Part shown: positions 16,094-46,906 of the stretch, piece after piece
How the letters are laid out: each line of letters starts with the position of its first letter
Numbering within the stretch: position 1 is the stretch's first letter
Assembly: GCA_947561715.1 (NCBI GenBank)
Contig: OX387200.1
Location: forward strand, 10,046,501 to 10,110,500
DNA length: 64,000 nt
Source: Ascidia mentula
Taxonomy: Eukaryota > Chordata > Ascidiacea > Phlebobranchia > Ascidiidae
Direction: 5' to 3'
Made by a program: the position numbers and the translations under genes
The notes under the pieces: generated by a model
What the model saw: the letters and a program-made list of their open reading frames with translations, nothing else
What the model was told of the DNA's origin: nothing
The model's database searches: none

Positions 16094-19000
16094 CTATTTC
16101 TCAACGTAACCAGCCTTCCGCGATTTATTTGGGTTTAACTTCAGCTGGGAGTCATGTGAGGAATTGGTTTTGCAAGGGGCCACGACTTGACCAGAAGGGA
16201 GTGTGAAGCGCACACTTCTTTTCTTCTTTTGTCGTGTTTTATCTCTGACAATCTTCGCGCAGTGTTTTTCTTTTCGCTGCGAAGATTTACAAACAGTCGC
16301 GTCGTCCCACAATTTTGATGGACCTGCTTCTGTGTTTAAAGATTGTCGAGCTCTTTCCGCTTTAAAATATTCCAACCAATCTTCGTCGGTTGGACCTCCA
16401 CATCGTTCTTCCTTCTCCTCAGTCTTTGATCCAACTCTTTTGATCATTGCCATCAACCTCCGAGGACTGAGGGGTTTAAAAATCTTGTTGCTTTTCACGC
16501 AAGGTTCGTAACTGACAATTTTAGTTGGAGATCGACTGAGTTTCAGCTTTGGGAACGACTTTGTTGCGGAAAGGTGGTTTGACGTGCTTGCGCCACTAGA
16601 TGACAGTAGAGTGAGTTTGGCTTGTGGCCCTTCCACTTGTTTCCCAGGGAAGCTATGAGGAACTTCACACGTTTGAGTGTATTTGTTTTCACTGGGCTTG
16701 TCAAATTCACTTTCCAGAAGTTTAGAGTTTTCTAAAAACTCCATTCCTTGTGTGTACAATGCATCAATAAGGCGCCTGGAAACTCGAACCTCGCCCACTG
16801 GGATATGACAACTGTCAGTCGTTGCGATTGTTCGGTGTTCAAATGCTTCACAAAATCCTTGCCCTTGTGAACTGATGATCGCAGAAATCATCCCAAATGT
16901 TTCCGCCCCAAAAAACTCGGGTATAATAAACATGGCGGGTTGTCGGGTTGGATTTCCCGTCTGAAAGTAAATCACCATCGAGACTGGCAGCAGTAAACGT
17001 TTATTCCAGGGCCTCGGAAGCTGCAACATGTTTCGGCCCATTTTCTGGGACACAGCATGTTCTGCGAAATACAAAATGATTGTAATGTGTTTGTGGTTTG
17101 AATTTATTTGTACGCAAATGTGACGCGAAACACTTGAATTCCCTAATCAGGTTTGTAAATTACTTAGCGGTATTGTCATTAATTTATATCGGAATATTGT
17201 ACTTTGGCTGCTTACCGGGAGTGTTGTAAACAGAAAGAAAAGTTTCTGATACAAATTGAATGCCGATATTTTCTTCACGTTGTGCACATTCCCGAGTTTC
17301 CTTTACCAATAAAATGTGTTTGTTTTTCTGAAAAAGACCACATCAAAATGATCATTATTGCTGAAAAAAAAATTAAGTAAACAGTATAATGTAAAACTGT
17401 TCTGGTGTAGATCAAAATTTTAGTGCAATAAGTTTAACAGAATAGAAAAGTTGTTGGTTGTAACCAAAAACATCTCAAAATGCACTTAACATTTACGTTT
17501 CGGGAAATATTTTATCAATTTTCTGGAAAAAAATGGGACGCGATTGTTTCTTTACCGTGGAGCTTCTACATCCTGCGGACGAAGTATCCGAAGTTTGTTG
17601 AACTTCGTTGGCCTTGTAACTTTTATCGTTGGAAGCTGTATTGATATTCACCGGGTGTGGGTAGCTGGTAATTGTAATCGGAGAATGGCCCAGTCGTAAC
17701 TTGTGTTTACAATTAACGAGGTTTGTCGTCGTCATATTATCAGTTGTCTGTGTATGTTGATGAAAACTGGGTTTGTCGCGAAGACTTAACAGAATCCCCA
17801 CGTTTTCAATAAATTCTGCAACTTGCGTGCAAACTTGATCTATCAAGTACGTGGGCACCAGAACCTCATCATCTGAGGGATTCAGACCACTAGATTCAGC
17901 TGAATGACAATCAGGTTTCAGAACTCCACTTAATGTCAATGGTTTTGAAAATTCTTCTTGCGATCTTATGATCAGCGATATTATCCCGAAGGTTTGCTCG
18001 CCAAAAAACTCCTTGGAAATAAAAATGACCGGTTGTTGGGGTGGACGTCCTGTCTGATAAAACACAACCAAAGAAACAGGCAGCAATGAACGTTGGTTCC
18101 AAAGCAGTCGAAACAGAAACTTGTTTTTCTTCTTTTGTTGATTCCCAACTTGCCCTGACAAACATATAATGGTTGCAAGCATCGTGATTTTTATTTTGCT
18201 TACTTTAACAACCTTCTCTATAATGTAACCTTATTTTACTTACCAAAATTGTTAAAGTCAGAAGGCAGGGTGTCATTTGCCAAAGCACCGAAATTATTTT
18301 CAAATCCTTCCTGTTTTTGAACGTGAGTTTCCTTTACATGTGCATAAATGGGTTTAATTTGAAACAAGTTACAAGATAAAACAAAAAATATATATTTATA
18401 ATTTTAATCCTCTCTGTTTCTTATAATTTTTTTAGAGTTTGTTGCGAAAAAGATTTTAACACCTCACAATCTTTGTGCAAATAATATTTTCACTCAAACA
18501 TTTCGATAAATACTTTACCTTATTTTTGGACGAGGCAAGACAAGATAATTCTTTTGGTCGTGGCCAGAACCATACTGCTGTTGATGGGTAAGAAAGCTGC
18601 AGAACTATCTTCTCTTTTCGATATCCTGGCCAACATTTGTCCGCTTTACTATAGCCTCGTTCCCAATCACTGCCTCCATCATCATGTAACATTTTTGGCA
18701 GTGTATTGAAACTAGAGGTATTGAAGTGCTTAACTTCAGAAATGACATTGACAATATTCTCTTTGACTGTAGGTTGGTTTGACTTGCTTGCTTCTGCAAG
18801 TGGCACTGCTTTGAGATTAGTTTTAGAAACATTCTGTGCAGAAGGCGACTTTCTGTATGATAAACCCTTAGTATCAACAGAAACAGATCGTGGCGATTTA
18901 AGTTGAACACGTGGGCCACTTGAAGTAACATCGTCTTCATGCAGATTGATTTCAGTTCTGTCAGCGATTGCAATGTCGAGTGGATCTATCAACATTTCGA

Positions 19001-22000
19001 TTAAGGAGTTGCCAAGTTGGTGTTTTTGCTCAGCAATAGACTCTTGTGCAGTAACTTGGTTTGTTGTGCTTGCTTCGACCTGTAACACTTTTGTGAAGTT
19101 GTTTGGAAAACCCTTTTGTTCAGTATCTTGCTCACATGAAGTACAAACCTCATCGTCAACAGAAACACTCGATAGTTTCGCACTAACATCTTGGAATTCT
19201 TGTAACGCGTCACCCATCAAGGTCTGCGTACAAATGTTGTGAAACTGCACATTGTTGTCTATCGTTGTCACACCATCATCTGTCTGTGTAGATTGGTGCT
19301 CACAGGGTTTATCGCAATCAATCAGTAAAACCTGGGCGTGGCCAATAAGCTCTGTAACTTCTTTGCACACTTTTCCAACCAAGTACCTGGGAACAAGAAC
19401 CTCCTCTAGCCAACTATTTCGATTCGGTTCAACAGAAAATTCGTCGGTAAATCCATGCTGTTGCTTCCTAATGATCGAAGATAATATCCCAAACATTTGG
19501 TCGCCGAAATATTCTGGTCTAATAAATATAGTCGGCTGTCGGGTTGGTCGTCCCGTTTGATAGAAAACAACCAATGAAACTGGCAACAATAATGGTTGGT
19601 CCCAATTCAGTGGGATATGGACTGAGCATAACGGATGAGTCACAACTCCTCCTTCATGTTTGTTCTCAGCGAAATCATCAGCTGCCGTTATGTGGTTTGA
19701 TTCAGTACGGAATTTACAGTGTAGGAGACATTTCTTGTGGTGAACAGAACCAGTCATCAACGGTTGGTGCGCAATTAAGACCTGTAAATTGTCACACGTC
19801 TGTGTGCTATTGGTGCGTGAATGTAGTTGAACTTCGTTTGTCTGCGTGGATCGATGCACGCAGAGTTTGTCGCGATTCCTCAGCAGAATTTGGACATTTT
19901 TCATGAGGTCTGCACCTTCTACGCACACTTTTTCAATCAAGTACCTGGGGACGGGAATCTCATCCAGCAGTCTCTGGCCATCGGGTTCAAGTTCATCAAA
20001 ATCAGCTTTTGGAACTTTAAATATTAATCGATGTGGGAATCGTTGTTTCCACCTAATTATCGGAGATATTATCCGAAACATTTGCTCGCCGAAAAACTCG
20101 GGTGTGAGGAACATGGCCGGGTGTCGGGGTGGGCGCCCAGTCTGCCAGAATATAACCAACGACATCGGCAACAATATAGGTTGGTTCCAAACCGATTGGA
20201 TCTGGAACATGTTTATTAATGGTGGATACACAACTTGTCCTGAAAAAACGTATGACGGTTGTAAGTATTTTGTTATTTTTTGGTTCATGATAACAGCTAT
20301 ATATATACCATTCCTGCATTGAACATTACTCGTAAACCAGCTATCTTGACATAGAAAATCTGCCACTGTAGGGATTTTTATGTCAGCCGCATTCTTCCAG
20401 TGAAAACCTTGCAAGGAAATTACTATTAGGGCTTTTTCACAAATAATTTATTACATAACCTTGTATTTTAGATGCTCACCGAAGGTATTATAGATGGATA
20501 TAAGTGTGTCGGTTTCCAGTGGTGCGCTGATATTTTCTTCAGGTTTCATATGCCGTTGAACGGGATTTTCCTTCGCAAAATAAGTTTGCTAAATCATAGT
20601 CAAAGCAAAACCCAACAAAACGTAATGAACATTTGCACATCAATTCAAACATGACATTTTGCGTAGATCCTATTATTTAATTTCAAATATTCCTAAAATA
20701 CTCACCATATTTCTGGATGGAACGGAAGAAGGAAATTCCTTTCTGTCCAAAGAAAAACATCCTTCTGTTGATGAGTCAAAAAGCGTTTTTTCTGCATTGC
20801 GAGATTCCAGGCATTTATTCTCGCTTTGATTATCGCCTGTTGCAGGATGTTCCTTGTCTTCATGTAAATTGCTTTCAATTCTATCGGCGATTTCTATGGC
20901 GGGGCTCGGATTAAGCTCTGAGATTTTTTGGGCCTCATCCGATTTCATGCCTGCCTGGGTAGGTTGATGTACACAGGGTTTGTTGTGATTATTCAGTAAA
21001 ACTAGCGAACGCCCCACGAGCTCAGTAACTTTGCTCAATTTCTCAATCACCAACAGCGAGTCTGACAGCAAGGGTTGGAATTTCGATATTTGAGTCATTG
21101 AAAGTGGGTTTTTGTTCATTTGTCCTGAAGAAGAGTTTAAAGTTTATGCACGTTTATTTGTCTCCGAGATTTGTCTCTCACCAAATGAATTCAACTTGCA
21201 TTCCATATCCAGTATTGTCATATCTGTTGAATTTACAACATCATGGTCGGTTTGACAATCTTCACAGTGCGCTTTTAGCGATTTCCATCCGTTTGTGGAT
21301 TGACAACTTTTGTGACTAGCGGGAGTGTTGGAAGGAAAATCAAGGTTTTGACGTGGCAGGATGGAAGTTTCCTTTAAAATTAAAAGTGGATATTGCATAA
21401 GTTGACATATCGAATGAGCCTAGCAAACACAAAGATAAGTAAAGCTTAAATGTGGCAAAAGTTGGCAGTATTTGTACATACATATTCATTTTTACTTTAC
21501 CATGTTTGTGACTGAAACGGAGTGAGGTAAATCCTTGCTGTTCACCGAAAAACATCCTTCTGTTGACAAGTCAAAGGTCTCGTGGGATTTCTCTGCATTG
21601 CGAGATCCCACGCAATTTTCCTTGCTTTGATTATCGCCTGCTGCATGTTCTTCCTTCTCTTCATGCAAGTTGTTATCAATTCTATCGGCGATTTCAATGG
21701 CGGGGCCCGGATTAGACTCTGTTTGTGTAGATTGGTGTACACAGTGTTGGTTGCGATTATTCAGTAAAATCTGCACACGCCCCAGGAGTTCTGTGACTTC
21801 ACAAAATTTCTCCATCACCGCCAACGAGTCTAACAGCAAGGGTTGGAACTTCGAAGTTTGTAAATACGGAAATGGATTGTTGTGAATTTCCTGGGACATT
21901 GCTTGTCCTAAAAAAAGAGTCAAAAGTTTATACACTTTTTTTTGTCTCCGATTGCTGCCATATTCTCTCACCAAATATGGTTGATGAATTCCACATGCAT

Positions 22001-27011: not shown

Positions 27012-30000
27012 CTTGTTCATTTCGTCCTTATATGTAGCTTTGCTCTCCTGTAGAGTTGTCATGATGGCGACTTTTGCCGTTGCCTTTGCAATAACAATTA
27101 CGGTGGTATTGAATTTAACATTAAAATACAGTTATTATTCAGCTATGTAAATGTTTTAGGAACTAACCTGCATAATGGTGCCAACTTCAGGCATATCTCC
27201 ACTGGCAAACACTTCAAAATATGCAAGAGTGTAATCAACAAGTTCTCTTCCGGTGACAACTTTGTTGTTGATTCGTTTCAACACAATTTGATCGGGAGAG
27301 AAGAGTGTACGCACCAAAATGTCGACAGATACTAAAAACTTTTCTCCGATGTCTTGAAGCGTATAATGAGTGATATATTAATGTTCATAATTTTTGCATA
27401 AAAATCGCACGCATACCCTTTAGACGAAGAAAGTTTTTTTGTTCTTCACTTCTAACAGCAACTTTCTCGCCAGGATAAGGCATCAGACAACACGAAACTC
27501 GTTCAAAAGATTTAAGCAGGTGTTTTCTAACTGACTCGGTGTCTTGGTGTTTAAGTTGTGTGTGCAGTACTTCTTTCAATACTTTTTCACCTCCATTGAA
27601 GTCATATGTGTAAGAAGGATCAGCCCAATCCCGAATAAGGAACATCAAATCCTTAAACGTAGATCAATTTATTTTCGAAAAGGGCACCGTAAGAGTTTGT
27701 TGGTTGCCGAAGAGAGCTCAATGTTTATAGATACTTGATGATTGTTTCTATGTCTATACAAATCACATTGTATAGGATTTCTCTAATTGGAAAAGCTTCT
27801 GCGCGTTTTAAATTGAATTGGACTTTTGTCAATGAAGGTACAATGCAACCAATCCGGATTGTTGTACAGGGACATAGACTAATTCGAATACAATGCCATA
27901 GTGAAATCGATTGGTCGTTGGATGCCACTTAACTCGGCCATCAACAGCAAATTAATTGCATAACTAATGTAGATTCCTAAACCAAAATTGATTATTTCTT
28001 TTCGTTATTGTTGTGATTTCTATTTTTGACGCAACATTCATAACAAAGGCTGCGCAGTAGCTCTGCGCGTGCAGACCGCGTGGGTGGTTAGGTTTGCTTG
28101 TACTTGTGTTGCCAGTTTTTTTTTGTCATGTGCTTTAACCTGATTCTATTTCAATAAGGATCATATTTGAACAAGGCGTGGGTAGTGTTTACGTCTGATA
28201 GCTGTGTTTATCTCTGAAAACTGTGTGACATTTTGAAGTTTTGCCGGCATCTGATAGATCGGTCGCAAACGGTTTGGTGAGAGTACTAGAATGTTTGCAA
28301 ACCGTATGTACAATTGTGTTTCTTTTTGTTTATAGAAACCGTTCCTGTTCCGTTGGTGTTGTGTTGGTCATTTTCGTTGTATTGAATACAAGTGTCTGAT
28401 GTGTTCTGCGGGCTTCGCCACTACCTAGGAGAACTGGGACGCGTTTTTAACACATTTGGGTTAAAGGCCAAAACTGCTGTGTAGCGTGTAACGACTCCGA
28501 TCCGTTGAAAAAGCACGTTACAGCTAATATTTTGGAAAATGGTAATAGTTGAATATCAAGATGTACCAACCTGAAACGGCTTTTCGTCACGTTTTTGCAT
28601 TCTTTTGGCTGCTTTTCCATATTCAGTGAAAAGCTGCAAAATAAATGACATGTTGCGTCATCGATGGAAGAAATGAAAATAAACTAGGAACTGACCTGGA
28701 GATGCTGCAGTTTGTCTTCTTGCAACTGTTTAGACACGTTGTAAATTTGGACAGAGCTTATTAAAGTACTGAGTCCAAATATAACAGAGCAGTCTTTTAC
28801 GTTACACGTTGGATCAAATGACCCTTGTGTGTCCATTAAAAACAGTGCCACCTTTAAATTATTAACAAACGGTAAATATTGAAAAAATAATAGAAAATAA
28901 CAGTAATTTTTGTTGCAAAATATTTTACAATCGTATATTAAGAATCTAGTTACTTTTCCTTGTGGCGTTTTAATAAAAAACGGTTCGTCCCAAATCCATA
29001 TTCCTTGAGTATGTTTATTTGCTCCTCCCCGCCAAACGAATCCTTTGTTGAGTTCGTCCTGTTTCGCATCTATCCATTTATCAGTCTGTGATTAAGTGGA
29101 GTTGTGTAAGGTTTTATATGATCTGTGATACAATACGTACCTTTCCTTTATTGCTCGCCCACAGAAATCGTAAGAAAAAATTTAACACGAAAGATTTTCC
29201 TTGTCGAAAAGCCCCGGCAACGGAATAAATTGCAACAGGTGTATTGACTACATCTCGATGTTCGAAGATTGTTTGGATTTCACGTTGTTTAATGCAATAC
29301 CCTCTCCCCCCAATTTGTGGTGAAACAATTTGTACAGCTTTGTGGCGCTTGGGTTGTTGTGAACCGCCATCGAATCTATGCGAACCTTAATAAATGATTT
29401 AAAACGGACCAATTTAAAAGCAAGGCTCACAAACTTATTTGAAAGTACAAACCCAGCTTTCATTTAAACTGTGTGCTACCTGTAATATATCCGGTGTCAA
29501 CATTTTTGAGGATGTCAATAATCAAACCCAAATTTGAGTTGCTAATGGCGATACCTGGTGTAGAAGAAAATGTTACAAACTATTCTGTTTCAAGGCTTAA
29601 GTAGCCGAGACAAAATAGTTTATATTGCCTTCATAACACTTCCTGGGGCATAATTAAGTCCTTTTATTTATGTGATATAATACTTTTAATTATGTGTTAA
29701 TGTGATTAAATTTTTACGTTGTACAAACAATAGTCAAAATGCTGTTTTTGAATGTTTGCTTAACAAATAAACAAAGAGATAAAAGGCTCTACTTTTTCAT
29801 TCAGTGCTGCTGGTGTAGCCTACTCGGTATAATGTGTGGACACAAATAAAAAAACACTGGTCAAGTATCGTTAAACAAAACCCGCAAATGATATTTGTGA
29901 TGCTCACATACACAGTTTTAAGAAATTATTTGTCAACATCACTGATACAGTAAGTCACCATACCAACACTCTCGGCAGCACGTCTTATATTCGGTTCTTT

Positions 30001-30093
30001 GAAGCCCATGTCCTTTAATGTGGTCAACGCTTTATGGCTTTCGCTGTAGGAATTGTCACTATCTTCGTCGGTGTCCCAGGTGTTGTTAGCCAT
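27012..30093 (-). pseudogene. Atlastin-like gene A', 3'-truncated duplicate of A
   Basis: Exons 29964-30093, 29480-29554, 29141-29385, 28954-29085, 28696-28851, 28571-28633, 27417-27651, 27168-27352, 27012-27083 match gene A in length and phase. The G-domain motifs are intact and no stop was seen. Homology ends at 26,966, so the rest of the helical units and the C-terminus are missing, and no replacement exon is evident. If transcribed it would encode a GTPase head plus 24 residues and run into intron. It may be a pseudogene or a source of a head-only protein. Confidence 0.75.
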
Positions 30094-31911
30094 CATTGAC
30101 TTTCGGTAGCAGGAAAACTTATTATAAATTTAAGTGGATCCGTAAACAACGTAACGCTTGTTTCATAACCCTACTTTAAATCAAAGGCCGAGCTGCGAGC
30201 AATTTACAGTTTATCAAGTGTCCTTCTCTGTGCTGCAATGTAGTGCTACTTTGCAGACAACTGCGTCTGCCACTAAAATACTATGTCACAAACCAAAAAA
30301 TGCTATTTATAATGTGATCGTTCTATTTTTTGAGAAATGAAAACCTTATTCCTGAGTCACAGACAATAAAACTTTCCTGTGACGCTGTAAGTTTACTCAC
30401 AACGTTATCGCGTGAAATATATATTGATGTTGGTGCAATATTGTGCCCGACACCAAGAAAATAGCCAACAGAGGGGACACTTTGTTTGCTTTAAAGTTAA
30501 GTGGTATGTTTGACATCAAACAACCAATTAGTTTCGTTATGTTATTGTGTATGAATTGGACTATGTCCCTGTACGACATACCTCATTGGTCGCATTGTAC
30601 CTTGTTACATACGTCACAGAAACCAGTGCTTGAATTGCGTAATGTTTTGCGTGCAGCTTTGCACATGCACTGCGTAATCCCATAATGTGACCCAAATGAT
30701 TTAGCCATCGAATATTCTCGAGTAAAGTGATTCATTCAACACCCTGTTTGCCACATAAAATGTTCTCCTATGCTCAGGTCACATCACACCTATGTTCTTG
30801 TATTATATTACTTCGACTGGCTCATGATATCACGTGACATTATTGACCAATCAGCTCTCAGTATGGGGAGCTTTAAAAAGCCCAGGTTGGACCGGTAAAT
30901 TCATTCTATTTGATTCTATTTGATTCCATTCGATTCTACTTGTTCTATCGTATAACTGTTACACTGCTATTATTACTGAGACTCTACAAGCTATTCGCCG
31001 GCTTGGGATTTATTCCCACAGCCTAATAATAAACTGTTTAATCGGGGTGAGGTGAGGTTCAAACCTTCATCGAAATGATTTCATACTTTATTTCTCATAT
31101 GACTTATTTAACGTTAAATAACGCTCAGAGGTTACTCAAACATGAAAAATTTTTTTTTGCTAAAAGAAATATATGATTGTAATGAGATGAAAACAACATA
31201 TACACTTGGGTCTTGTCGTTTTTGCAACGTTCATTAAATCAGCTGCACAATATAATGAAATATCTGTGATTATACAACTGTTTCATTCAATTACCATGCA
31301 TTGCTGTTGAGATGCTTAATCTTGTGAGGAATTATTATAGATATATATAATCGATTTTCCTATTACACCATTGTTTCTTTCGATTAAGTTATCACATCTC
31401 ATCTCAGTTAGTCACACCAAACGAAACATTGCGATGACCAAGCTCACTGTTTTGTTGAATTAAACCACTTTATTAGCACTGAAATCTGGATTTAAATGTA
31501 GGCCTGTGTGTTTCATATTGTATTAACTTTGTTTTGTAATAAATATCCGTCCATGTCCGTCCTCATATTTGACGATCTGTGAAAAGACATGACCCACGTA
31601 ATTGGCGACATCATAAGTTTTATTTGCGAACACAAACTGCATAAGTAATGGTGAATAGCATAAAATATGGCACATTGAAACTTTCAGGAGCAAGTTTGCT
31701 ACAATGACGGCATAGATAACAAAAAGGCAGGACTTTGACAAAGCAACACAACACAATTATAGTTTCAAGGCTACAGTAATCATAAACAAGTACATTTCTA
31801 TTGTGAAACTAAAGCAGAAACCACAGATATCAGTGCAAATTTGCAGGTACAGAAATAAACATTGAGAAAACAGGCAGTGAATGAAAACAATATGCACTGT
31901 AACAACATTTT
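30094..31911. other. Intergenic region: 5' flank of A' and 3' flank of B'
   Basis: It is colinear with 3,369-4,512 apart from the insertion at 30,603-31,065 and a diverged stretch at 31,170-31,460. No coding exon was supported. Confidence 0.6.
30603..31065. mobile_element. About 460-bp insertion, possibly a solo LTR
   Basis: The paralogous site at 3,891-3,900 is an empty site (GTACCTCCATCG). The insert starts TGTTACATACG and ends near GAGGTTCA, with ACCT on both sides as a possible short target duplication. Inside are a TTTAAAAAG TATA-like box (about 30,873), imperfect repeats of TTCTATTTGA, and AATAAA near 31,026. These features resemble an LTR, but the ends are not a clean TG...CA pair. 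Confidence 0.55.
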
Positions 31912-32105: not shown

Positions 32106-32447
32106 TCATTCACTTAATTTTGTTTGTAGGCCACGAAACATCCCGGCCAGAAGTCCAATTCCCGCCCCTATAAAACCCCCCGAAAAAAATCCAGCCGCAG
32201 CACCAAGCGCAGCATTTACCACTACACCACCTATACGACGTACCCATATCAACCTATTTTTACCGTTGTTTTTTTGTATGTTTTTGTAGAGATTGTCCAG
32301 TTCCTGCATGCAAATTTCTTGAAATTCTCTCCAAAACGGATATTCATTTGCATCTGCTTGCTGAGCAAAATTATTCTTGAGTTGTGTCTTCAACTGCTCG
32401 TGCGCCTTGTCAAGGTCATTGGGGTCAATGTACTTGGAATCACACAA
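32106..32447 (-). CDS. Gene B' last exon c: glycine-rich membrane tail
   Basis: It differs from the B copy (4705-5046) by only a few codons, for example K to N in [10 protein letters not shown]. Acceptor, frame, length (113 residues) and stop are preserved. It encodes a terminal helical half followed by a glycine-rich hydrophobic segment, likely a membrane anchor. Confidence 0.77.
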   Translation of the reverse strand: MCDSKYIDPNDLDKAHEQLKTQLKNNFAQQADANEYPFWREFQEICMQELDNLYKNIQKNNGKNRLIWVRRIGGVVVNAALGAAAGFFSGGFIGAGIGLLAGMFRGLQTKLSE

Positions 32448-35400
32448 CTGCCAAATGTAAATGTGACGCAATAAATTCAGGTTACCCTTTTAGATGTAAT
32501 TCGAGGTTATGTAAACAATTCCTGTCCTGGGAATCCTGTTTTCTAATACTGACACCAATTTATAACACAAAGGGTTTTGTCATGCTGCTATGCGGGTTTA
32601 TTTACAAATGCTACGAATAATATAGTAATAATACACAGTACATTCCTAAACACAATAATCAACGTAATGTTTTCAAAATTATTAAGTTTGGTGATAAAAA
32701 AGAGAAAATGCTATAGCGAAGTGTCAGTTTTGTTCACATGAGTCAAAGTACGCCAGATTTCGAATATACACATTTAAGGGACAAGTTAGTAAAAGTTCTG
32801 ATTCAACTATATGCAAATCCAATATAATCAAACCTAGTTGTAGGATTGTCAATGATTTTACATTTTTGCAGAAGCACGAAGCGTGGAATGCAATAGGAAA
32901 AGGGTTTAAAGATTCAGTTAAAAAAGACTTCGCACAATCTTCCACCCTTGTTTAACATAATCCCAAACTCCTTTCTTTGCCTCGTTGTTTTTCTTTATTG
33001 TTTTAAACATTTCTTCCATTTCCCTTTCATATGTTTGTGTTCGTTGGAATGAAATATCTTCACCAAACGACCGAAAACGGATGTTTTGTAGTAATTCCGA
33101 TTTACATTGCTCGTGCGCACGATCCAGATCTTCTGGGTTTACATAACCACGGTCGCACAACTAAAGCAATATTTGGTAAACAATATAAGTGTCATAGGTA
33201 GCAAAGTAGTTAAAGGACAACAGTATTTTTGTCCTAAGGACGCAAATAACATACACCTATTCAATGTAGACAAAGCTTTCCATGTAACATGTAAAAAAAA
33301 TAAGCAAATAAGAAGGCTTGCAAACGTTATTTCTACAGGGTGTTCGCTTATATTCTTTCATTCTTTAGGGGTTGTTTTGGTGTAAGGTGGTGGAGGGCTT
33401 GGGGGAGGGGAAGGATTTGGACGAGGATCAACAGAACTTGAAGGTTGCATGCTAAGAAATGGAAATTTTTTGTCCCGAAAAGTTTCACAATCTTGCTTGA
33501 GTGAAGAACCTTCTTTGTCGTCATGAAAGCTGGTAAGTAATCTAGAAAGTCCTGAAATTCCGGCCATAATCCAACGCCTTGGGTGGCTTAGGTTGGTAAA
33601 AAATGCTGTTGCACCATAGAGAAGAGCCTCGCCTATTTTAGGCAGAACTTGTTTGTACCAAAGATTTTTATTCTTTTCGTTCAAGAGGGAAATGGATTGA
33701 AATCTTTCATTTGCGTATTGCCGAAATTGGTCTGACATTCGATCGGCAACTTCTGGGGCAGGAATGTTTTCCCTAATCTTGCTCTGAATATCCCGACACA
33801 AGGAATCATTTTCTTTTTCCAGCGCCACTGGGTCAACGTACTGCCCATCACATAACTAAAGAAAACCACAAATCGACATTCACCGCACAGCGCTTGCAAA
33901 TATCACTTGTTTGTTTAAGCAACAGGAGTGAGTAGCATTTAAGAAAAAGGGTTTCGGAAGTAATGATCCTCATGTTAGATAAAATCGACATTGCAAAGGT
34001 TATGGGCAACATGCCAAATCTTGCTATACTTGTGTTTGTGTATTATTGAACTATAGTTCATAGGCTCCGATTTAGGTAATAAATTCAACCTGCAGTATTG
34101 CATTTCCCTAAATAATGCACATGAGTCGAACAAACAAAATCACAGTTAAAAAAACGCTACTATGTTGTTATTCACTAATTTAGAGCATAAAAAGTTGTGC
34201 ATAGGAATCCGAAATCATATTAAAAAAATACCTAGTGAAACAAACTTAACATTTGGACAAACAAAAACAAATCGGTCTCACGTTGGTCATGTGCTTCATG
34301 TAGCCCTCTTTAATTTCCTGCAGAACTTTTTCCGCTGTTTGTTGCATTTGCATCTGTGGAATAGCAAAACGCTTTGGTTTAGTAGGATTGCAAAAATTTT
34401 GAAGTAAATCTTATTGTAGACTGTAAATACCTCGAGGGGGACACGTATTTGTACTTCTAGAAACAATAATTATTCGTTTGATTTTTCATTGCTGCCAACC
34501 TTAAGCTCTTCATTCTTTTCGCAGATCAACTTGTAATGATCAATGATATCACTTTTCAGCTTGTTCAGTACATTGTCACGATCTTGTTTCGGAATATTTG
34601 TGTCAGTTTTACTGAAGTCGTTTATTGCTTTTTCCTTTTCATTGCTATGCAACCTGTCTAGACGACTTTCATCCACGTATCTCACTGTTGCCTGCAACAA
34701 TTTAAAGATTTTCGAACCGTTCGTCAACGAAAAAACAATAGCAATGTCATGAAAATTTCAAAATTAAGGAAAATGCTGTTAAAGAACTTTCCACATGAAA
34801 AGTGTATTTACCATTAATGTTAAATAATTTTTAAATTGGAATTACTATCATTTCAACTCACTTGGTCAACTTCCTTAGTATAATTTGTGTATACTTCAAT
34901 TTTTCTTTGATGTAACATATTCAAACAATCTATCTGCAAAACGAATCACATCACGAAACCACAACAAAATACAACCAGACATAACCAGATATAACCAGTC
35001 ACATTATCAACCGAGACTTCACTAATTAATTTTTAGTCATAATATATGTCTGTCTGCATGGATGACAATTCCAACAAAAAACAAACTAACTTTACGATTT
35101 GCGTTTTTCCTTTTTATCTTTTCGTACTCATTTTCCATAAATTCATCAAATTGAGATAGGCACTTTTGCACGAAGCCAATTTCTTTGTGATGTTCAAGCG
35201 ATGAAATGACAACCATGGCACTTTGTTTGCTGTCAGCATGTGCTTCTCTCAGATTTTTGTCATCCACAAAGCCATGACCACACACCTGAAGAATTGTAAA
35301 GTACTGTTTCTATCCACTTCAAGCAAAACAATAAAGCCTTAGAACAACATAATGCATAACTACGCCACAGCTACATCGTCAAGTTGTAAAGTCTCCGTCA

Positions 35401-38400
35401 TTAAAAAAAACTGTTTTCGCAGGATTATGAAGTTGAGTAAAAAGGAAAACATTAAACGGAGCACAAAGGTAAATATCCTACACCTATGAGTAGCGACACC
35501 ACATAACTATTCCACTGATAATTACCTACCTCTTCCATAGCGGACTTATACATACTTTTCGCTTCTTTCATGGCTTCTAGAGTTTGTGTCTGTGCAAATT
35601 TCTGAAATTTCGACGAAGTTATGAACACTCTACCAAACACAAAATTCTTAGATATATCGAAGAAAGATTACTTCGTTCATGTCGTTGGCTCTTTTGTAAT
35701 TTGTTTTCTCTATTTCAATTCTCGAATCCAGGAGATCTCGTTCTTCTTTGCTTTGCCGTGATGAGTTATCACATTTGGAGTCAAAGTTGTTCAAAGCATC
35801 AGTCTTGGCAATTTCATGGACTTCATCAAACTGGTCTTTCCTCATCACCACATCGTTGCATTTCTTGGAGAATCAATACTTTTTTACTTAAGTTTTTACT
35901 GTGCTGTTAACTTTGTTTCCAATGAAAGATGATACGAAAAAAAGTTTTATTACCGCAACAGAGTAACAGCAATGAAGATCATTTCAATATTTATCACCAA
36001 GAGAAGAGAAATAGACAGTTTGGTTTGGTTTAGTATTACGCGTACAGCATATGTATATCGCAAATTCAACACATGTCATTTGTTTAAAACAGAAGTATCA
36101 AAACCTCGGGATGCAAACTTCAAGAAATTTAGTTAAACAGTGTAATATCACTCACCACATCCATTAATTGAATATATTTTCGAATTGCAACAAGGGATTC
36201 TTTTTCCAGATGACGCCTCAAGTCTTCCTGTGCATAATACAAAACATCGCATTACAAAATAATTTCCACAAAAAACAACATATATATTTACACACAACAA
36301 AGCACTTAGTATATTGTATACCCGACCTTTTTGTGATTATTGGTTTCCTGGAACCTCCTCAGGGCTTGGGCGATCAAGTCATGCAGTTTTACACGATATT
36401 TTTCCACAATTTCTAGTGGAAGATCGTTTGTTTTTTCTTTGTATAGTTGTAAAGCTTCTTGGCGGCAAGTTTGAGAAATCTCCTTCAATGTTTGTTCGTC
36501 CATGTGTTGACCACCACTGCACTAAAAAGCGATTCACAATTGGCCATTTTGTATCCAGAAACATAAATATAATCTGTAACTTACGTCATCAAGAGCCTTC
36601 ACATAAATTTCCTCAGCTTCCGATGCAGCTTCTCGAGCTGTAAATTTACTTCGTTCCTAAAATGATAATTGTTTTCATTACATTTCTGCAAACGTGTATT
36701 TCCAAGGTTAATATCTGTTAACTTTCGTTTAAGTCAATAATCAGTGTGATATTAAAATAGAATCAATCAATCATCATTTGATAGGCATTAGAAAATGTTA
36801 CCTCGTAATAATGAAACATAAATATTCATACTTTGTTACAACTAATTTCAAACCTTTTGAGTTTTATTGATTTGTTCAAATACAGCAAACTCCTGTTCAA
36901 TGAGCTCTTTCAAATTACTTCGATATTGCTGAATAAACTTTTCGTCCCCAAATTTGGGTTTTTGGTCGAATATTTCTAACGCTTTTGTCAGGCAAGCGTT
37001 GTGAGTTTTCCTCAAGTCTCCTTCACTGATGAACTTGTCCTTGCATCTCTAAAAGAAACACATAAATTTATGATGTACAGTAACATAAATCCAATAAATA
37101 TCAGAACAACGTTAACAGTTTGGTTAGAAAAATAATACCACATAGATCTACCTTGTTCATTTCATCCTTATATGCAGCTTTGCACTCCTGGAGAGTTGTC
37201 AAGATGGCAGCTTTGGCCGTTGCCTTTGCAACACCACAAACGTTACTTTACTTATCAAAGAAATATGAATGTGTAGGGATATCTTTTTGACCTTATGCAA
37301 GGTTTTGAGAACTAACCTGCAAAATGGTGCCAACTTCAGGCATATCTCCACTGGCAAACACTTTAAAATATGCAAGGGTATAATCAACAAGTTCTCTACC
37401 AGTGACAATTTTGTTGTTGATTTTTTTCAACACAATTTGTTTGGGAGAGAAGAGTGTATGCACCAAAATGTCAACTGCTCCCAAAAACTCTTCTTCGATA
37501 TCTAAAGATTGCAGTAAATGTACTCAAAATTAATCAATGATTGAATTGTTTGCATAACGAGCATACGCGTACCCTTTAAGTGAAGAAAGTTTTTTTGTTC
37601 TTCACTTCTAACTGCAACTTCCTTGCCAGGATAAGGCATCAGACAACACGAAACTCGTTCAAAAGATTGAAGAAGATTTTTTCGAACAGATTCTGTATCT
37701 TTGTGTTCGAGTTGTGTGTGCAGTACATCTTTCAATACTTTTTCACCGCCATTGAAGTCATATGTGTAAGAAGGATCAGGCCAATCTCGAATAAGGAACA
37801 TCAAATCCTTAAATGCATTTCAATGTAGGCTACTTTGAAATTAGAACAAAAACAGCATGTACCTACACGGAAATTCGTTTTGGTCAGAGTGGTCCTACTT
37901 TATAAGGCAAATTCAATATGTTATAAGTTGTTTAAAGTGTCGATAAACGACTATATAGACGAGTAATTCCAATTCATTGGTGCCTGCGGACCTTTTATTG
38001 CCTTGTGGTCCGGTGAAAACACAATGTCAGCATGGTTGTGCAATTTTATAATGTTCGAATAAAAGGTTACTTGGTGGCAAAAAAATCGGAAACTAATGGC
38101 TTTCAAATGGTATAAACTTGTTGAATGTAACAAGGTGTACCAACCTGAAATGGCTTTTCACTACGATTTGGATTTCTTTTGGCTGCTTTTCCATATTCAG
38201 TAAAAAGCTGCAAAACAAATGCTTGCTGCTTCACCGATGAAAATATCAAAATAAACTAGGAACTGACCTGGAGATGCTGCAGTTTGTCTTCTTGCAACTG
38301 TTTAGACACGTTGTAAATTTGGACAGAGCTTATTAAAGTACTGAGTCCAAATATAACAGAGCAGTCATTTACGTTAGACGTTGGGTCAAATGACCCTTGT

Positions 38401-40577
38401 GTGTCCATTAGAAACAGTGCCACCTTTAAAAAAATATTAACAAAAGTATTGAAACAGTTGTGCTTTAAAAAACATTTAGTGATACATATATTCACACACA
38501 CATCGCTTGAAACAGAATCACCCGCTACTATGTAGATAAATATGTTATAGGCCTATGTAGTGTGTGTGCATTATTCTATTACTAAAGAGGCATTGATCGC
38601 TGGGAAATCATCTGTACATGTGGTTTTGGTCCCCATACTCGAAATTAGAAGTCATCTGTTACATATACATGCTACAGACGGACGAACATGTACGATAAAG
38701 CTAGACATCCAGAAATATTTTGTTTAATGCTTCATGCGACTAATTAGACACAGTCTAGATTTTTTTACTTTTCCATCCGGCGTTTCAATGAAAAACGGTT
38801 CGTCCCAAATCCATATTCCCTGAGTATGTTTATTTGCTCCTCCCCGCCAAACGAATCCTTTGTTGAGTTCATCCTGTTTCGCATCCAGCCATTTATCAGT
38901 CTATGATTAAATGGTAAAAGTTGTATGAGTTCTACTAACAACAAAAAAAACAAAACAATACGTACCGCTTTTTTTTTGTTGGCCCACAGAAATCGTAAGA
39001 AAAAGTTTAAAATAAAAGATTTTCCTTGTCGAAAAGCTCCGGCAACGGAATAAATTGCAACAGGTGTATTGACTACATCTCGATGTTCGAAGATGTTTTG
39101 GATTTCATGTTGGTTAATGCAATACCCTCTCCCCCCAATTTGTGGTGAAACAATTTGTACAGCTTTGTGGCGCATGGGTTGTTGTGAACCGCCATCGAAT
39201 CTTGGCAAACCTAAACATATGATCCAAAAATGACCAATTGAAAAACGAGCAACAAATTTTCTGGAAAGATAGGGCAACAGAAAAAATATACAAATACAAA
39301 TTTACCAAACACATCTTGCGACTCAACATTGCGATGTGGAAACAAATTTGCATGGTGACATATACTGCTGGTTGCTGGGAGCCCTGTAATATTAATGTAC
39401 GTTGTGTTTACTTCCTCAGGCTTACGGGAAACTTACAGGTAGTTTCTCACTCTAACTCAATTCATTGTATTGTCTTTAAAATCTACCTGGAATGTATCCG
39501 ATGTCACTATTACTCAGCACTTCAATGAGTAAATTCAAAGTTGAGTTGTTGATATCAGCACCTGGTATAAAATCTAATATTAAAAACGGAAATATTAAAT
39601 ATTAACGATACTGCAACCATATTACTATATTGCCTTTACAACGCATCATTGCTGTACACGCAGCAGCATATTCAATTGTTGTAAAGAAGCAACAAAGCAT
39701 GGCAGTAAATAAGACTATCAATAAGGGACAATCGCAGTTTTGGACTATATAATATTTCATTTAAGGAGCAAAGTTTGTTTGCTCGTACATGATGTGTTAT
39801 GACATCCCACAACAAACATTAGTGTCAACAACTATTATGCAAATCATCAGTCGTTCGTCACACATAGTATTGTTTGCTACATTTCACTTACTTGCAGACA
39901 TCTTTAATATCGCTAAAGTCATACAACAATACAATATAAAACAAACATTCATAAAAACTCACAAACTGACAATCAGGTTTTTACGTTTTTTGTCAAGCGT
40001 TAACATTTGGTCTGACGCCACAATGTTATCTTATTTTTGGTGCCTGGTACTTACATTCTTCGACAGTTTCTGTTTTGCCTAAATGCAATTTTTTTCCCGC
40101 AAAAGGATTTAGGGCTGCGCTACACGAGTTTTGGTGAATAACTCCTATCTAAACCGATGCATTTTCAGCCAATCTTTACCCGCGACATTGTAACGTCAGA
40201 CCCAAGATAAAAAACAAACAAAGGGATGAAAAGCGGTTGCTCTACTGTTTGATTCGGAGGTATGCCAGGCTTGGTGCGTGGGCAAAAATAGTTTGTGACG
40301 TACTTTTATTAAAAAAAAGTTGTTATCAAATGACAATGCCTTTTGTATTTTGGAGTAATTTATGCGAATGCGCAAGGACGCATTTTTTCAACAGGAGCAA
40401 AGAGTTATCTTAATCAATAGCATATCGCTAAACGTTAACTTTCATACCAAGGTTTTTAGCAACTTGTCTTATATTCGGTTCTTTAAATCCCATCTCCTGT
40501 AATGTGGTCAAAGTTTCATTACGGTCGCTGTTGGAATTGTCACTATCTTCGTCGGTGTCCCAGGGATTGTTGGCCAT
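32106..40577 (-). CDS. Atlastin-like GTPase B' with UBA-like N-terminus and six helical-bundle units
   Basis: Intact gene. Exons: 40448-40577, 39487-39561, 38966-39210, 38769-38900, 38268-38423, 38145-38207, 37573-37807, 37317-37501, then pairs 37152-37223/36854-37048, 36585-36656/36327-36521, 36156-36227/35672-35863, 35530-35601/35091-35285, 34862-34933/34500-34691, 34282-34353, and one of three last exons. The shared part is 874 residues; full proteins would be 1039, 954 or 987. Residues 1-68 contain a UBA-like [17 protein letters not shown]. The G domain has [25 protein letters not shown] and RDW, closer to atlastin than to GBP. Each helical unit is a 24-residue exon (A...A...Y...M) plus a 65-residue exon (C..YVDP..L...H, ending N..K), matching the single three-helix bundle of animal atlastins. 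Membrane remodelling is the family role; the function of six units is unknown. Confidence 0.87.
32918..33160 (-). CDS. Gene B' last exon b: short basic tail
   Basis: 80 residues starting LCDRGYVNP and ending WKIVRSLF. It keeps the frame and stop of the B copy with conservative amino-acid changes, which supports it as real coding sequence. Confidence 0.75.
   Translation of the reverse strand: MCDRGYVNPEDLDRAHEQCKSELLQNIRFRSFGEDISFQRTQTYEREMEEMFKTIKKNNEAKKGVWDYVKQGWKIVRSLF
33358..33855 (-). CDS. Gene B' last exon a: PPxY tail
   Basis: 165 residues starting LCDGQYVDP and ending [18 protein letters not shown]. The PPPPY motif is identical to that of copy B. The nearby acceptor and the length are unchanged. 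Confidence 0.75.
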   Translation of the reverse strand, partial: LCDGQYVDPVALEKENDSLCRDIQSKIRENIPAPEVADRMSDQFRQYANERFQSISLLNEKNKNLWYKQVLPKIGEALLYGATAFFTNLSHPRRWIMAGISGLSRLLTSFHDDKEGSSLKQDCETFRDKKFPFLSMQPSSSVDPRPNPSPPPSPPPPYTKTTPKE

Positions 40578-40739
40578 CATTGACTTTCAGCAGCAGAATA
40601 AGCACAGTTTCTTGATATATCTTTTTTTAAGACAAAACTAAAACAAACGCTGTTGCCATGCCATGCCTAGTAACAACGTAAAACACAGGTTTAAGTGAAA
40701 TCAGTATGGGTCCAAAATATATGTAACAGTTGTGTAATG

Positions 40740-42170: not shown

Positions 42171-42865
42171 GGAAATATAAGCTTTGAAATCAGATATTTC
42201 ACAAAGCTACAAAAAACAATGAAAGATTCAAAACATACTGTTTTTACATTGATTTGTTTGTAATATAGGGTGATGCCCGTCCATGGTTCTCTGTCCTCAT
42301 ATATCAGACAGTTGAAAAAAATATTGACCGACAGGCTACAATATATTTAATCACATTAATCTGTTGCAGTACATCATAAAGCCATAGAACTCGTAAGCAC
42401 AAGCTTGATAAGCGCATGACATTAAAAAATAAAACCCGATGAAGCTTTCAGGTATAAATTTGATGCAGTGATGACATGGCAATGAAATATAAAGCTGTAA
42501 TATAAGAAATTTGACAAAGCAACAAGACAGCACAAGTAACGTTAAAGGTTCCCTTGTAAGTAAAAGATTCTGTGTTGTGAAAACAGAACAGAAACCGCAG
42601 ACTTCGGGAACAGATAAGAACGCATTGAAAATGTATAGTATGGACATGAGCATTAAAAGTTTACATGCTCTAAAATATTTTACGTAAATGCTAACCAATA
42701 TCATACAGGCGTTTGTTTGAACATACCCTTTAACACAAATTTAGCCATCGTACATCTGCTTTTGATGCAGGCGAAGACTCGTCTAGTTGGTTACGCATAT
42801 TACAAAATCTTTTAATCTTCCAGCACAAGCTCGTACCGTGGACAATAAACAAACTGGAAGGATGC

Positions 42866-45800
42866 TCATCTCAGCAACAAGCGGACAAAATCCCGAGCAA
42901 GATCTTCCCGCATGTTTTCCTGAATTAAAACCGAAGAAAAAAATCCATTAAATTGAAGATTGTAATATGAACGCACAAGTAATTTAAATTATTGTTGTCC
43001 AGTAGAACTGACGAGTCTCATTGTCATTAACGATATCCTATATGAAGGAAATATGTTTACTGCGTTTACCCTGGCCAGTGGCCGCCATACTTTTTTGCTG
43101 GTGTTATTTTTGGCGTGTAAATACAAATACATTAATACTTATTTCATAAAACTTGTGTTATGTTAAATACTATGAACAAACAAAGTTGTGTTTCCCAATT
43201 AATCGTTGCTTTACCAGGAGTAATTGACGAGCGAATTCGTTGATTTGGTCAAGCAGTTCCTGGCCGATTTCATTAAACTTAGAGACCGGATCATGGGGAC
43301 CACTTTCCTCAAATGCCTTGACTGCAGCTGCTTTACAAAGAGCGTGGGCCAACTTGAATCCTTCACTGTTCAAATCGCGAATTTGTCGCTGTGACATAAA
43401 CAGATTAAAGTCCTATGCATTCCTAACGTTTTTTCTGTTTGTCTCCTCATCCGTTGAGTAACATTACATTATTTAGGACTTTTGTACACGGATCTATGCT
43501 GTCGTAGAATAAAACGAATATCGTACAATAAAAACAGAATCTCATTATTAATACAGGTTATCAATCCGAAACATTTAAATATGAGATTTGGTAAAAGAGT
43601 TTGCTGTACTGTTCGTTTCATAATGAGACATAATTCGGCATATTTTCTTGTCAAACTAGTATGGAAAGACTGATTCGAAATGAGAAATTTACAAAATCGC
43701 AAAAATAATCACATACTTTCATATATAACAACCTACGTTTTAAAAGCTGTGGTTAGAGTGCTTACAATAAATTTCCATATTGGACACCGCACATTGAACA
43801 GGCTATGTTAAGGTCCAATACTTTCAGACAATTTTTGTCGGTATCTCGGCCTTGTTTGTGATTGTAGAATCACTGATAACTTTTTAAAGTGTCTCGAGCG
43901 TCGCAACTGAGTACTATTATGTTAATTCACAGGCTCCTGTAGGTGCCACCTTCAAAATTCCGCCAACCTTAAGGTTATAAACTGTACCTTGTCGGGGTTA
44001 AAATTCAAAAAAAGTTAACGATTAACTTTCTTCATAAACGATTTACGAAAAGAGAGGACGCTGTATGCCGGGGTTTGGTTGTGTTCGTTCCTTGGGTGAA
44101 AATTGCTTTCGACAAGTGTTTTGGTTTCCATGTTGTGGCAATTTTTAATTCGTATTGAATGCGTTTAAATGACCGTGGTATTCTTAACAATTAAGATATT
44201 GGGGACTGGCGACCTTGACGGATTACAAAGTACATAACACATAATACCTGGCACATGCTCTGCTTGTAGGCGGCTAAGGACAATTTTTTTCGTTCTCGAA
44301 ATGATGCCACAGCTTTATCCTGAAACAAAACAGTGATAAAAGCCTGGTTTGACAAAAAAAATTTGTTTTTGGTTTTAATGTGTTAATTTGTAGCAGTATT
44401 TCTGTTTCTCACAATAAATGCTCGATGGTAAGTTTACATACTTTATTTGTTGTTTAGTGGCAGGTTATTTCGTTAATCTTACTAAGCTCAGTTGCTGAAA
44501 AGCTGGTTTTAATCTGGCAGCCTCCCGTTTCACTTCCTCCACCTCTCTGTCTGTTCGCGAACCCATTTTCAAAGCAGTCAGAACAGACAACGCCCCTTGC
44601 AGGGAAGCAGAATGCGCCACTTCCAATCTCAGCAACCCAAGAAAAGATGCCTCTGCCTTCTTTTGTAAGGAAATACTTTTGTTTTATTTAACATCTTAAA
44701 ACATTCCAAATTACTAACAAAAATCAAACATTTTGTGATTTACCTGCTTCATAGATGCTTTGTATTTCTCCAAAGCTGCAATTTTGGCTTTTCTAACAGC
44801 ATCTTGCATAGCATTCTAATAAGTTTTATACGCGTAAGTTATAAACCAGATTAAACTTGAGACGTGGGTACTTTTGTTTGTTTGCTTAATGTTTCCTTTT
44901 CATGACGAATGGCAGTGTACAAATCGGAAAGTGCTTCTTGCTTAACATCACCGCCAAGTCCGAATTCCACAGCATTAAATTGTTTCATTGCCGCAGCAAA
45001 GGCGGCATCATGAACTGCATCAATGTTACAAACCGCATTGCTGGTCAAAGCCTAAAAAGTCAATAGTCAATAGACATTACTTTTATTGGTGTAAATATTG
45101 GATTTAAATGTAAGTCACCCAGACTAACCACCTTATTCATCGTTGCTGTGTACACAGTTTTTGCTTGGACGCTTGCTTGAGTAAACTCTGACTGTAAATC
45201 TTGCTGTAAAATCATAATGCAAATTATATATTTGCTCAAAAACGTGGTCGTCACGAGCACATCATAGTAACAAACCTTTTTATTATTATTTTCATCAAGA
45301 AACTGGTGAAACTTTCGACGCAAGTTTCCGTTCAATACCGTCTCGAACTCATCTATTTCATCCTCTCCAAAATACGAGCATAGACGGTGAAAATGATCGA
45401 CAGCTTCTTGTGCACAAAGTTCGTCTAAGGCGTTTAATTTGGTTGGGTCGGCGTACTTGCATTTTGTATGCTGGAGGTAACAAATACATTGGAAGCTTGA
45501 TTCGCTCAAAGCAGAACAAACATTGTCGCGATGATGTTTGCTTTTAGAGATGGTACTTACCAGAAATGTGTTGGTTTGTTCGACACCAAAACCCCGGTTT
45601 ACAATATTAAAGTAACATAATAAAGTGAAAATTCAACACAAGACTAGTTCGTGAGCTACATACACACATTTTACAATTTATGTCTAGTTTAATCTCAACC
45701 TGTCGATTAGCCTACATAAAGCAGCATTTCAGGTCGAGCTGCAGCAGGTTTTGTTGGGCAACTGTAATGAACTTTGGTGTAAGTTGCACGTTCAAATAAA

Positions 45801-45914
45801 AACCCTGACATGTTTGAGATATGTAGGTAAAACATTTTACAATACCTCATTCATTTTCTTGACATAGTGCTTTTCGGCTGCCGCCACATTGGCCATTAAG
45901 CGTTTTCGAACATC
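42866..45914 (-). CDS. Gene X: helical-bundle repeat protein without GTPase head (5' end unknown)
   Basis: Exons: 45846-45914 (23 residues), 45276-45470 (65), 45132-45203 (24), 44872-45051 (60), 44744-44815 (24), 44483-44659 (59), 44248-44319 (24), 43215-43388 (58), 42866-42919 (17 plus stop). This is the same alternation of 24- and about 60-65-residue phase-0 exons as in B and B', and the 45,276-45,470 exon keeps CKYADP..L....C...A and ends NNNKK. Later pairs are more diverged. No P-loop or other G-domain exon was found between 45,915 and the DDX54 3' end, so the gene appears headless, unless an exon was missed. It ends in a short tail RDFVRLLLR with no membrane segment. The start codon is not identified; Met within the first listed exon is possible. 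Confidence 0.6.
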
Positions 45915-46906
45915 CTGTGAATGAAACATTAATGCAGTTGTACCCTAATCGCATTATTACAATGTATCTTACTGCGTTGGTCATGACCCTTGTAAGCTGG
46001 ATGCCTAGAGGTTCGTTTACCTTGACAATGAACTAACTGTAGGGCAGATGTCTGCAAAACCACCTTTGCCTCAACAAATCTGTGAAAGAGGAACCAATGT
46101 GTTTTGTTACGCTTCGCAAGTTGTGACGTTTTCCACGTGATATGACGCAAGCCCAGTCAACAAAAGAAAGGCAATTAATCTCTAACTCTTTACACGCACC
46201 GGTACCATTGCTATACCTGTACTTAGTAGTTTTAATCGTAACACAGGTGAAATTTTTTTATCTAACTGTGACATATGGAGATATACTACTGTGGCTTTGC
46301 TAAACCAACATTTTACGCTTGTGTTGGTAAAATGGGCAGTGTGAAAAGATTTGTATTATGTCATAGTAAAGTTTAATTTAAAATCCAAATGCCCACGCTA
46401 CCAGTAATCTGAGCAATCACGGTTCACGCGAATAGTTTTATTGTTACATTAAATTTCTCAGTACTCATTCAAAAACCTATTTCACCTTCAACTGGGTTGC
46501 AAACGTTTGTAGGTCTGTGCTAATGCCGAAAGTCCGAAGCTACTCTATATTGCACTGTCATACCTTAGTTAATAAATACCCAATCAAAGCAGCTTCTGCT
46601 AAACTAAAAAAAGTCTTGCCTCCGTTCGTAGTGCAAGAAAGTGTGCGAACAACTGGACTAGTAGATATCACTTCTGTGCGTATGACGTTGAGCAGTGTTT
46701 TGGGAGCAAGAAGCGCGTGAGGTTAAAACACTCCAATCGTTTTTTCGGGATGTGCAAATGTTAAAATTTAAGCGATTTATGTCGACATCCTACTATCTAA
46801 CCAGGCCAAAATCATTTCACAATTAAATCGAAGGCGAACTAGTGCAGCTAAATGCGTTTAAACATTAAAAGTTTTATTTTCTCAATATCGCAACACCAAT
46901 AAGAAC
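45915..46906. other. Spacer between gene X and DDX54
   Basis: No G-domain or helical exon is visible. A plus-strand frame at 46,517-46,720 has no recognisable features. The promoter and first exon of gene X should lie here but could not be fixed. Confidence 0.45.

Follow-up and report, generated by a model that had tools for sequence, protein, structure and literature searches.

The DNA analysed here (the window) is a stretch of 64,000 nucleotides from the ascidian Ascidia mentula, positions 10046501-10110500 of contig OX387200.1 (C67 below), in an assembly of 195.8 Mb. On its minus strand, running from 40580 to 32106, lies a gene that we call B. It probably encodes an atlastin-type GTPase in which exon-pair duplication has made a serial arm of six three-helix bundles, each of its own type, followed by one of three candidate C-termini; B belongs to a large family in this genome. 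The observations made directly are the exons and their frames, the kinship to atlastin, the positional types of the bundles, one fused joint in a paralog, and low ratios of nonsynonymous to synonymous substitution rates (dN/dS). The exons of B are as follows, in the order of transcription.

40448-40580, minus strand: E1, N-terminal exon with the start ATG; UBA-like LxxMGF motif, below the Pfam cut-off
39487-39573, minus strand: E2, N-terminal exon
38966-39210, minus strand: G1, GTPase (G) domain exon with the P-loop GAFRQGKS
38769-38900, minus strand: G2, GTPase domain exon
38268-38423, minus strand: G3, GTPase domain exon with DTQG
38145-38207, minus strand: G4, GTPase domain exon
37573-37807, minus strand: G5, GTPase domain exon with RDW (G4 motif)
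37317-37501, minus strand: G6, end of the GTPase domain and linker
37152-37223, minus strand: h1, helix 1 of bundle 1, 24 residues
36854-37048, minus strand: U1, helices 2-3 of bundle 1, type 1
36585-36656, minus strand: h2, helix 1 of bundle 2, 24 residues
36327-36521, minus strand: U2, helices 2-3 of bundle 2, type 2
36156-36227, minus strand: h3, helix 1 of bundle 3, 24 residues
35672-35863, minus strand: U3, helices 2-3 of bundle 3, type 3, weak when scored singly
35530-35601, minus strand: h4, helix 1 of bundle 4, 24 residues
35091-35285, minus strand: U4, helices 2-3 of bundle 4, type 4
34862-34933, minus strand: h5, helix 1 of bundle 5, 24 residues
34500-34691, minus strand: U5, helices 2-3 of bundle 5, type 5
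34282-34353, minus strand: h6, helix 1 of bundle 6, 24 residues, preceding three candidate last exons
33358-33855, minus strand: T1, candidate last exon with helices 2-3 of bundle 6, a helical tail and a proline-rich end, 165 amino acids and stop
32918-33160, minus strand: T2, candidate last exon with helices 2-3 of bundle 6 and a short amphipathic tail, 80 amino acids and stop
32106-32447, minus strand: T3, candidate last exon with helices 2-3 of bundle 6 and a basic, then glycine-rich hydrophobic tail, 113 amino acids and stop

The arm consists of six phase-0 cassettes, each pairing a 24-residue exon with an exon of about 65 residues. AG and GT border the exons of both kinds (24 residues, and 65 or 64 residues); each of the 11 is in phase 0, and every listed arm exon of B has a length divisible by three. 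An initial annotation of the window had described such cassettes within 32106-37223 of the minus strand, and their exons, AG...GT borders and open frames are confirmed. The two N-terminal exons, the six G-domain exons and the cassettes splice in silico without a stop or a phase clash, yielding 879 shared residues (412 + 467, the latter for the arm), to which the last exon adds 165, 80 or 113. The shared open part had been foreseen correctly, at a length of 874 residues that the exon model corrects; likewise the sixth repeat is present, with three candidate last exons (33855-33358, 33160-32918 and 32447-32106) in place of the single one expected. The 879-residue model excludes a possible extra exon of 25 residues (39308-39383, minus strand), whose phases fit with or without it and whose borders, as tested, are one base off a clean AG/GT. 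The N-terminus encoded by E1 and E2 (40448-40580 and 39487-39573, minus strand) carries the LxxMGF motif and resembles a UBA domain split by an intron. Assignment as a UBA domain is no more than a lead: the Pfam E values of 0.05-0.09 in B fall below the cut-off, and the version in the related A-type genes described below gave no UBA match up to E 10.

The G domain and bundle 1 of B align colinearly with Drosophila atlastin (3x1d) over 410 residues at E 3.7e-86, which bears out the atlastin-like GTPase proposed initially; the same region matches GBPs more weakly (best E 5.9e-17). Atlastin-type GTPase motifs, which we take to be the P-loop arginine, DTQG and RDW, are aligned to those of 3x1d. 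PF02263 matches B at E 2.3e-57, and PF02841 matches only through its positions 4-117 of 297, over bundle 1, with no match to the 467-residue arm scanned as one piece. Pfam likewise assigned no spectrin family to the arm at E values up to 1. No RHD3/Sey1 family was found among the Pfam matches to B up to E 1, nor any Sey1 chain among the 27 PDB sequences that B matched up to E 0.001.

It had also been proposed that the repeats derive from the atlastin middle domain, to be checked by a hidden Markov model comparison in which no relation might appear. The comparison found a relation. Built from the eight unit versions together (five units, and h6 with T1, T2 and T3), a profile matched atlastins at 1.2e-10, and a profile of units 2-6, with unit 1 excluded, matched 11 distinct atlastin sequences in the PDB at 9.5e-10 to 1.9e-7, over profile positions 10-88 of 89; atlastins were its only PDB matches below E 0.01, the next match standing at 0.027. 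Scored one by one with a profile built from three atlastin fragments, units 1, 2, 4, 5, 6T1, 6T2 and 6T3 each outscore 500 of 500 shuffles. Tyr18 and Asn85 are invariant across the eight unit versions (h6 being common to three of these), and the helix-1 tyrosine is present in 76 of the 82 helix-1 exons found at 11 loci. Judged by its sequence, B is atlastin-derived; it departs from the single three-helix bundle of atlastins, having six bundle units at the gene level, as well as from their two membrane segments, and it lies outside the GBP, RHD3/Sey1 and spectrin groups as tested.

The gene belongs to a cluster (C67:9.966-10.087M) of four B-type and three A-type copies, all with the same arm. 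Beside B, the window holds one more of the B-type copies and a fourth A-type copy.

4702-13241, minus strand: B' (B_III, copy III), the same exon set as B, with in-frame stops in G6 and h2
27012-30096, minus strand: A_IV, an A-type copy represented by its N-terminal exons, G-domain exons and h1

B' had been described as sharing the layout of B, and this holds for the exon set, not for its intactness. It is probably a pseudogene because of its stops, the second of which lies in the 24-residue exon of the second cassette (9203-9132), unless the assembly is wrong at these points. Nothing U-like was found after h1 of A_IV at 22-28 kb of the window. All exons of B_I, B_II and B_IV are free of in-frame stops. 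No stop interrupts the exons from G2 to h6, those checked in A_I, A_II and A_III, and in these copies AG and GT border each of the 11 arm exons. When A_III is compared with B, two of the ten arm introns align over most of their length and eight over only 7-31 bases (best single BLAST piece). The repeat in the arm is not a chance pattern, since self-comparison ranks the lags 266, 177 and 89 as the three best of 280 (z 5.1, 5.0 and 4.1) and the arm exons have kept their AG and GT in the A copies while most introns diverged. As point estimates, dN/dS for bundles 2-6 is 0.36 between B and A_III (378 codons) and 0.21 between B and B', that for the G domain is 0.29 in both comparisons (256 and 337 codons), and that for bundle 1 is 0.53 and 0.38, B' itself being a likely pseudogene. 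From these sequence comparisons, constraint on the arm looks roughly equal to that on the enzyme.

In a FastTree phylogeny of 90 units, built on 61 columns and with many forks unresolved (including the placement of unit 1 of the paralog L024), units group into six types that largely follow position. Only A, B and L024 served to train the type profiles, and these three fit the order 1-2-3-4-5-6 by construction. Genes of a second cluster read 1-(2-3-4)x3-5-6, with 69 of 69 units in six related genes in agreement and none of 100000 within-gene shuffles matching; four of these genes have 12 units and two are cut at 10 and 11. The pattern was derived from a tree that held four of the six, and the 23 units of the other two fit as well; all six are close relatives rather than independent events. 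Elsewhere, L030 reads 1-2-3-4-2-4-5-6, and L036 (C71:16930000-16939990) reads 1-2-3-4-3-4-3-4, with the 3-4 pair three times, and runs off its stretch. L034 reads 1-2-5-6, its unit 2 assigned by a margin of 1.5 bits, and L037 reads 1-2-(5?)-6 with a small margin for the uncertain third unit. L025 and L031, like L036, are clipped by stretch ends, L038 is uncertain owing to small margins, and L035, L041 and L045 show no type-6 unit within the stretch examined. From these readings across paralogs, the family appears to have six distinct bundles as its basic layout, and the sequences indicate that change is by internal blocks (types 2-3-4 or 3-4, duplicated or lost), with type 1 and, where seen, type 6 keeping the ends. 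The expectation that units could be gained or lost is thus borne out between paralogs, as whole cassettes.

Genome-wide, PF02263 gives at least 154 exon matches, many of them clustered. A GBP_C search of the genome returned two weak matches only, so an iterated U-exon profile was used, which finds at least three U-like exons in each of 20 stretches. These 20, together with six smaller ones (L040-L045), had been picked for prior PF02263 or arm matches, and finding bundle exons in 20 of 20 is therefore no sample of the family. A 72-base, AG..GT-flanked, helix-1-like exon precedes 82 of 95 U exons at 11 loci (score above 5), by a scoring matrix built partly from the same exons as were counted. 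With an earlier matrix, scores of the reported helix-1 exons ran from 8 to 35, the highest background score among 326 antisense bins of 500 bases being -3.6, and some U exons were without one. Genes in other clusters read as four, eight or twelve bundles. The same genome holds an ordinary atlastin (C67:11.379-11.388M) with, by eye, one bundle and two hydrophobic segments; its 24-residue helix-1 stretch lies between like phase-0 borders and its 65-type part is split over two exons, again by eye. L041 (C2:15.38M) was considered as an intronless copy and dismissed, its long frame proving not to be intronless. Within the window, diverged bundle-like exons with helix-1-like stretches occur on the minus strand of 42800-46000 (45458-45285, E 3.3e-7; 43364-43236, E 3.3e-5), and the part of the window upstream of them shows neither a GTPase motif nor a GBP-domain exon; they may belong to a bundle array whose GTPase is distant or missing.

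The three candidate last exons all lie 3' of the single h6, and each provides helices 2-3 of bundle 6. They are open to a stop at the same place in four of four B-type copies, with a DNA identity between B and B' of 97.6% for T1, 96.1% for T2 and 99.1% for T3. The three A-type copies have T2 and T3 whole or in large part, and two of them have T1 as a remnant (51 of 501 bases). By eye, a T1-like tail is present in L024, and T3-like basic and glycine-rich tails are present in the 12-bundle genes, L030 and L034. AATAAA stands downstream of T2 (32602) and of T3 (31915). Atlastins have two adjacent membrane segments and a C-terminal amphipathic helix. The best 19-residue hydrophobicity means are 0.79, -0.41 and 1.71 for T1, T2 and T3, and a pair of strongly hydrophobic segments is absent from all three. 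Some GBP members have a C-terminal CaaX box; T1, T2 and T3 end in TPKE, RSLF and KLSE, without one. AlphaFold, run for the last exons T3 and T1 only and on window-only alignments of 14 rows, predicts with low overall confidence two helices in the U part of T1 (predicted local distance difference test, pLDDT, about 83) and two in the T3 tail (about 50). A glycine-zipper anchor was rejected: of four glycine-rich tails scanned, two gave Pfam E values of 0.44 and 0.14 and the other two gave none.

Whether the cassettes are used together or chosen among bears on what B makes. Bundles in tandem had been proposed for the whole arm, and serial joining is established for one joint of one paralog, at the DNA level: an 84-residue exon of L024 (C67:9903480-9903731; acceptor CCAG, donor GTAAGC) holds U3 and h4. 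The bundle 3-bundle 4 joint of L024 is serial, since the two are contiguous in one coding exon. Among the seven helix-1 stretches without a preceding AG, L024 alone was fused, in frame and open; a match spanning U2 and h3 in A-type genes was discarded as in-frame intron read-through in the alignment. If one cassette were instead spliced into each transcript, B would be an ordinary atlastin carrying a single bundle, picked from several, an arrangement that the exon geometry allows and that the low dN/dS of the units as a set would suit, and that the fused exon of L024, the ordered positional types and the block duplication make very improbable. Skipping of pairs could also let one gene give proteins of one to six bundles, with T1, T2 and T3 adding variety. 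All 11 arm exons being phase-0 multiples of three and three open last exons following one h6 would suit such switching; however, paralogs keep the type order and have 2-3-4 duplicated as a unit, as would suit neighbours that are used together, L024 has one fused joint, and skipping h2 would not rescue B', given its second stop in G6. We consider switching of this kind unlikely.

Several points weigh against a serial, six-bundle, atlastin-derived B. Unit 3 alone is not recognisable as atlastin, its score being reached by 29 of 500 shuffles, and units 2-5 as one plain sequence reach atlastin only at E 0.23, the match needing a profile. By the rule used, 13 of the 95 U exons have no helix-1 exon. 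The fused joint sits in a paralog, as the sole fused one of seven candidates checked, and any cassette could be skipped without a frame break, so that arm length may differ between transcripts. T1 has no poly(A) signal within 197 bases downstream (eight hexamers tried), and a later site may be in use. B_I has AT rather than AG before E2, so only B_II and B_IV look undamaged throughout. Structure models cover two last exons only, at mean pLDDT 57.5 and 64.2, and Foldseek with the T1 model found no match (best E 2.2).

In atlastin, GTP binding pairs the G domains and the three-helix bundle rearranges, according to the accessible text of PMC12312388, which describes as disputed how bundle and GTP cycle drive tethering and fusion. 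By analogy, we think that B works like an atlastin or a GBP on a long arm. GTP-driven G-domain dimerisation would join two molecules as in atlastin, bundle 1 would retain its atlastin role against its own G domain, and five further bundles would stand between the G-domain dimer and the tail, bundles 2-5 acting as spacer and contact surface, with the choice of last exon selecting the membrane or the partner. Helices of 24-28 residues, at 0.15 nm per residue, would make each bundle about 4 nm long, and an end-to-end arm would by arithmetic measure about 24 nm for six bundles and 48 nm for twelve. Proline and glycine are rare at the joints, with 22 of 1968 residues in helix-1 exons and 24 of 1776 over the final 24 residues of 74 U exons; this would fit a spectrin-like run of helix 3 into the next helix 1, and the nearly invariant Asn near the joint may mark a kink.

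Two roles can be set against each other for such a protein. The one we favour slightly, at somewhat under an even chance, is host defence in the manner of GBPs, in which the arm would help to build coats on pathogens or their vacuoles and not to fuse membranes; it is preferred on account of the dense and partly decayed tandem arrays. The PF02263 exon matches, at least 154 and many clustered, agree with it, as do the recent copies, the truncated A_IV and the stop-bearing B' of the tandem array, and BmAtlastin-n offers a precedent as an antiviral atlastin relative without membrane segments (PMC4926086, as far as accessible). However, B is nearer to atlastin than to GBP (3.7e-86 against 5.9e-17), and a CaaX end is missing from T1, T2 and T3. 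Tethering of the endoplasmic reticulum or of vesicles over more than the atlastin distance, in which the arm would act as spacer and either T3 or T1 as the anchor, appears less probable. It would draw on the atlastin-type G domain and bundle 1, on the hydrophobic T3 tail (best 19-residue mean 1.71) with its two helices predicted at low confidence, and on RHD3, which is likewise longer-stalked in the accessible part of PMC3866526; a strongly hydrophobic segment pair like that of the genome's own atlastin (by eye) is lacking, and T2 has no hydrophobic segment (best mean -0.41). Speculatively, the paralogs may form a set of molecular rulers, with one GTPase dimer module on serial arms of 4, 6, 8 or 12 bundles. 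The arms would have grown as internal blocks were duplicated in frame while the end bundles stayed fixed, the tails would be interchangeable, and membranes or coats would be held at graded distances. If so, pairing between unlike arm lengths would set which membranes join.

Other open reading frames lie in the rest of the window. On the plus strand, 56060-57175 is a single open reading frame for a TAM41-type mitochondrial phosphatidate cytidylyltransferase (PF09139, E 1.7e-106). Open reading frames in 16094-20447 of the minus strand share a motif like W..(L/I)LLP.SLV.(F/Y).QTG.P.(R/Q)QP, and those at 16094-17146, 17493-18230 and 18456-20447 have no Pfam match up to E 0.01. In mitochondrial COX1 of this assembly, AGA and AGG are read as glycine (e.g. 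GGFGNW, GTGWTVYPPL), as in the ascidian code 13, a reading that points to a tunicate; these glycines are invariant in COX1 generally.

Within one genome, GTPases of one kind appear to carry anywhere from 1 to 12 bundles, and such a natural series would allow the effect of arm length on tethering, fusion or coat assembly to be tested. The family is also relevant to a question raised in the accessible text of PMC9005921, whether defence fell to atlastins where GBPs are missing. The literature matches listed, as far as their text was accessible, include no multi-bundle atlastin, and no paper combined atlastin, three-helix bundle, tandem and repeats; both are weak evidence of absence, subscription papers and preprints lying mostly outside the coverage. 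The initial statement that no atlastin of this layout had been described stands among those matches but needs qualifying, since long stalks in this enzyme class are known from RHD3 (PMC3866526, accessible part).

Among known systems, spectrin-repeat proteins resemble B in being chains of helical units with a fixed period (89 residues in B) and little proline or glycine at the joints, whereas the arm of B is kin to atlastin by sequence and has no Pfam spectrin match. GBPs share the PF02263 G domain, the partial PF02841 match over bundle 1 and a clustered, expanded family; they differ in that the arm of B has no full PF02841 match and no CaaX end. The stalk of yeast Sey1p is a row of helix bundles. 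Like RHD3 and Sey1p, whose region between GTPase and membrane is longer than in atlastin (much longer for RHD3, in the accessible part of PMC3866526), B has an arm that by homology would be a long helical region, but one built of recognisable atlastin-type repeats from exon pairs. Silkworm BmAtlastin-n is also an atlastin relative without classical membrane segments, but has 770 residues and one coiled-coil middle domain, and the accessible part of its description mentions no repeat arm (PMC4926086). Atlastin itself shares with B the G-domain motifs, the colinear G domain and bundle 1, and, by eye, the helix-1 phase-0 borders seen in the genome's own atlastin; B differs from it in lacking the classical pair of membrane segments, in having six bundles (4, 8 or 12 in relatives) against one, and in its candidate alternative C-termini.

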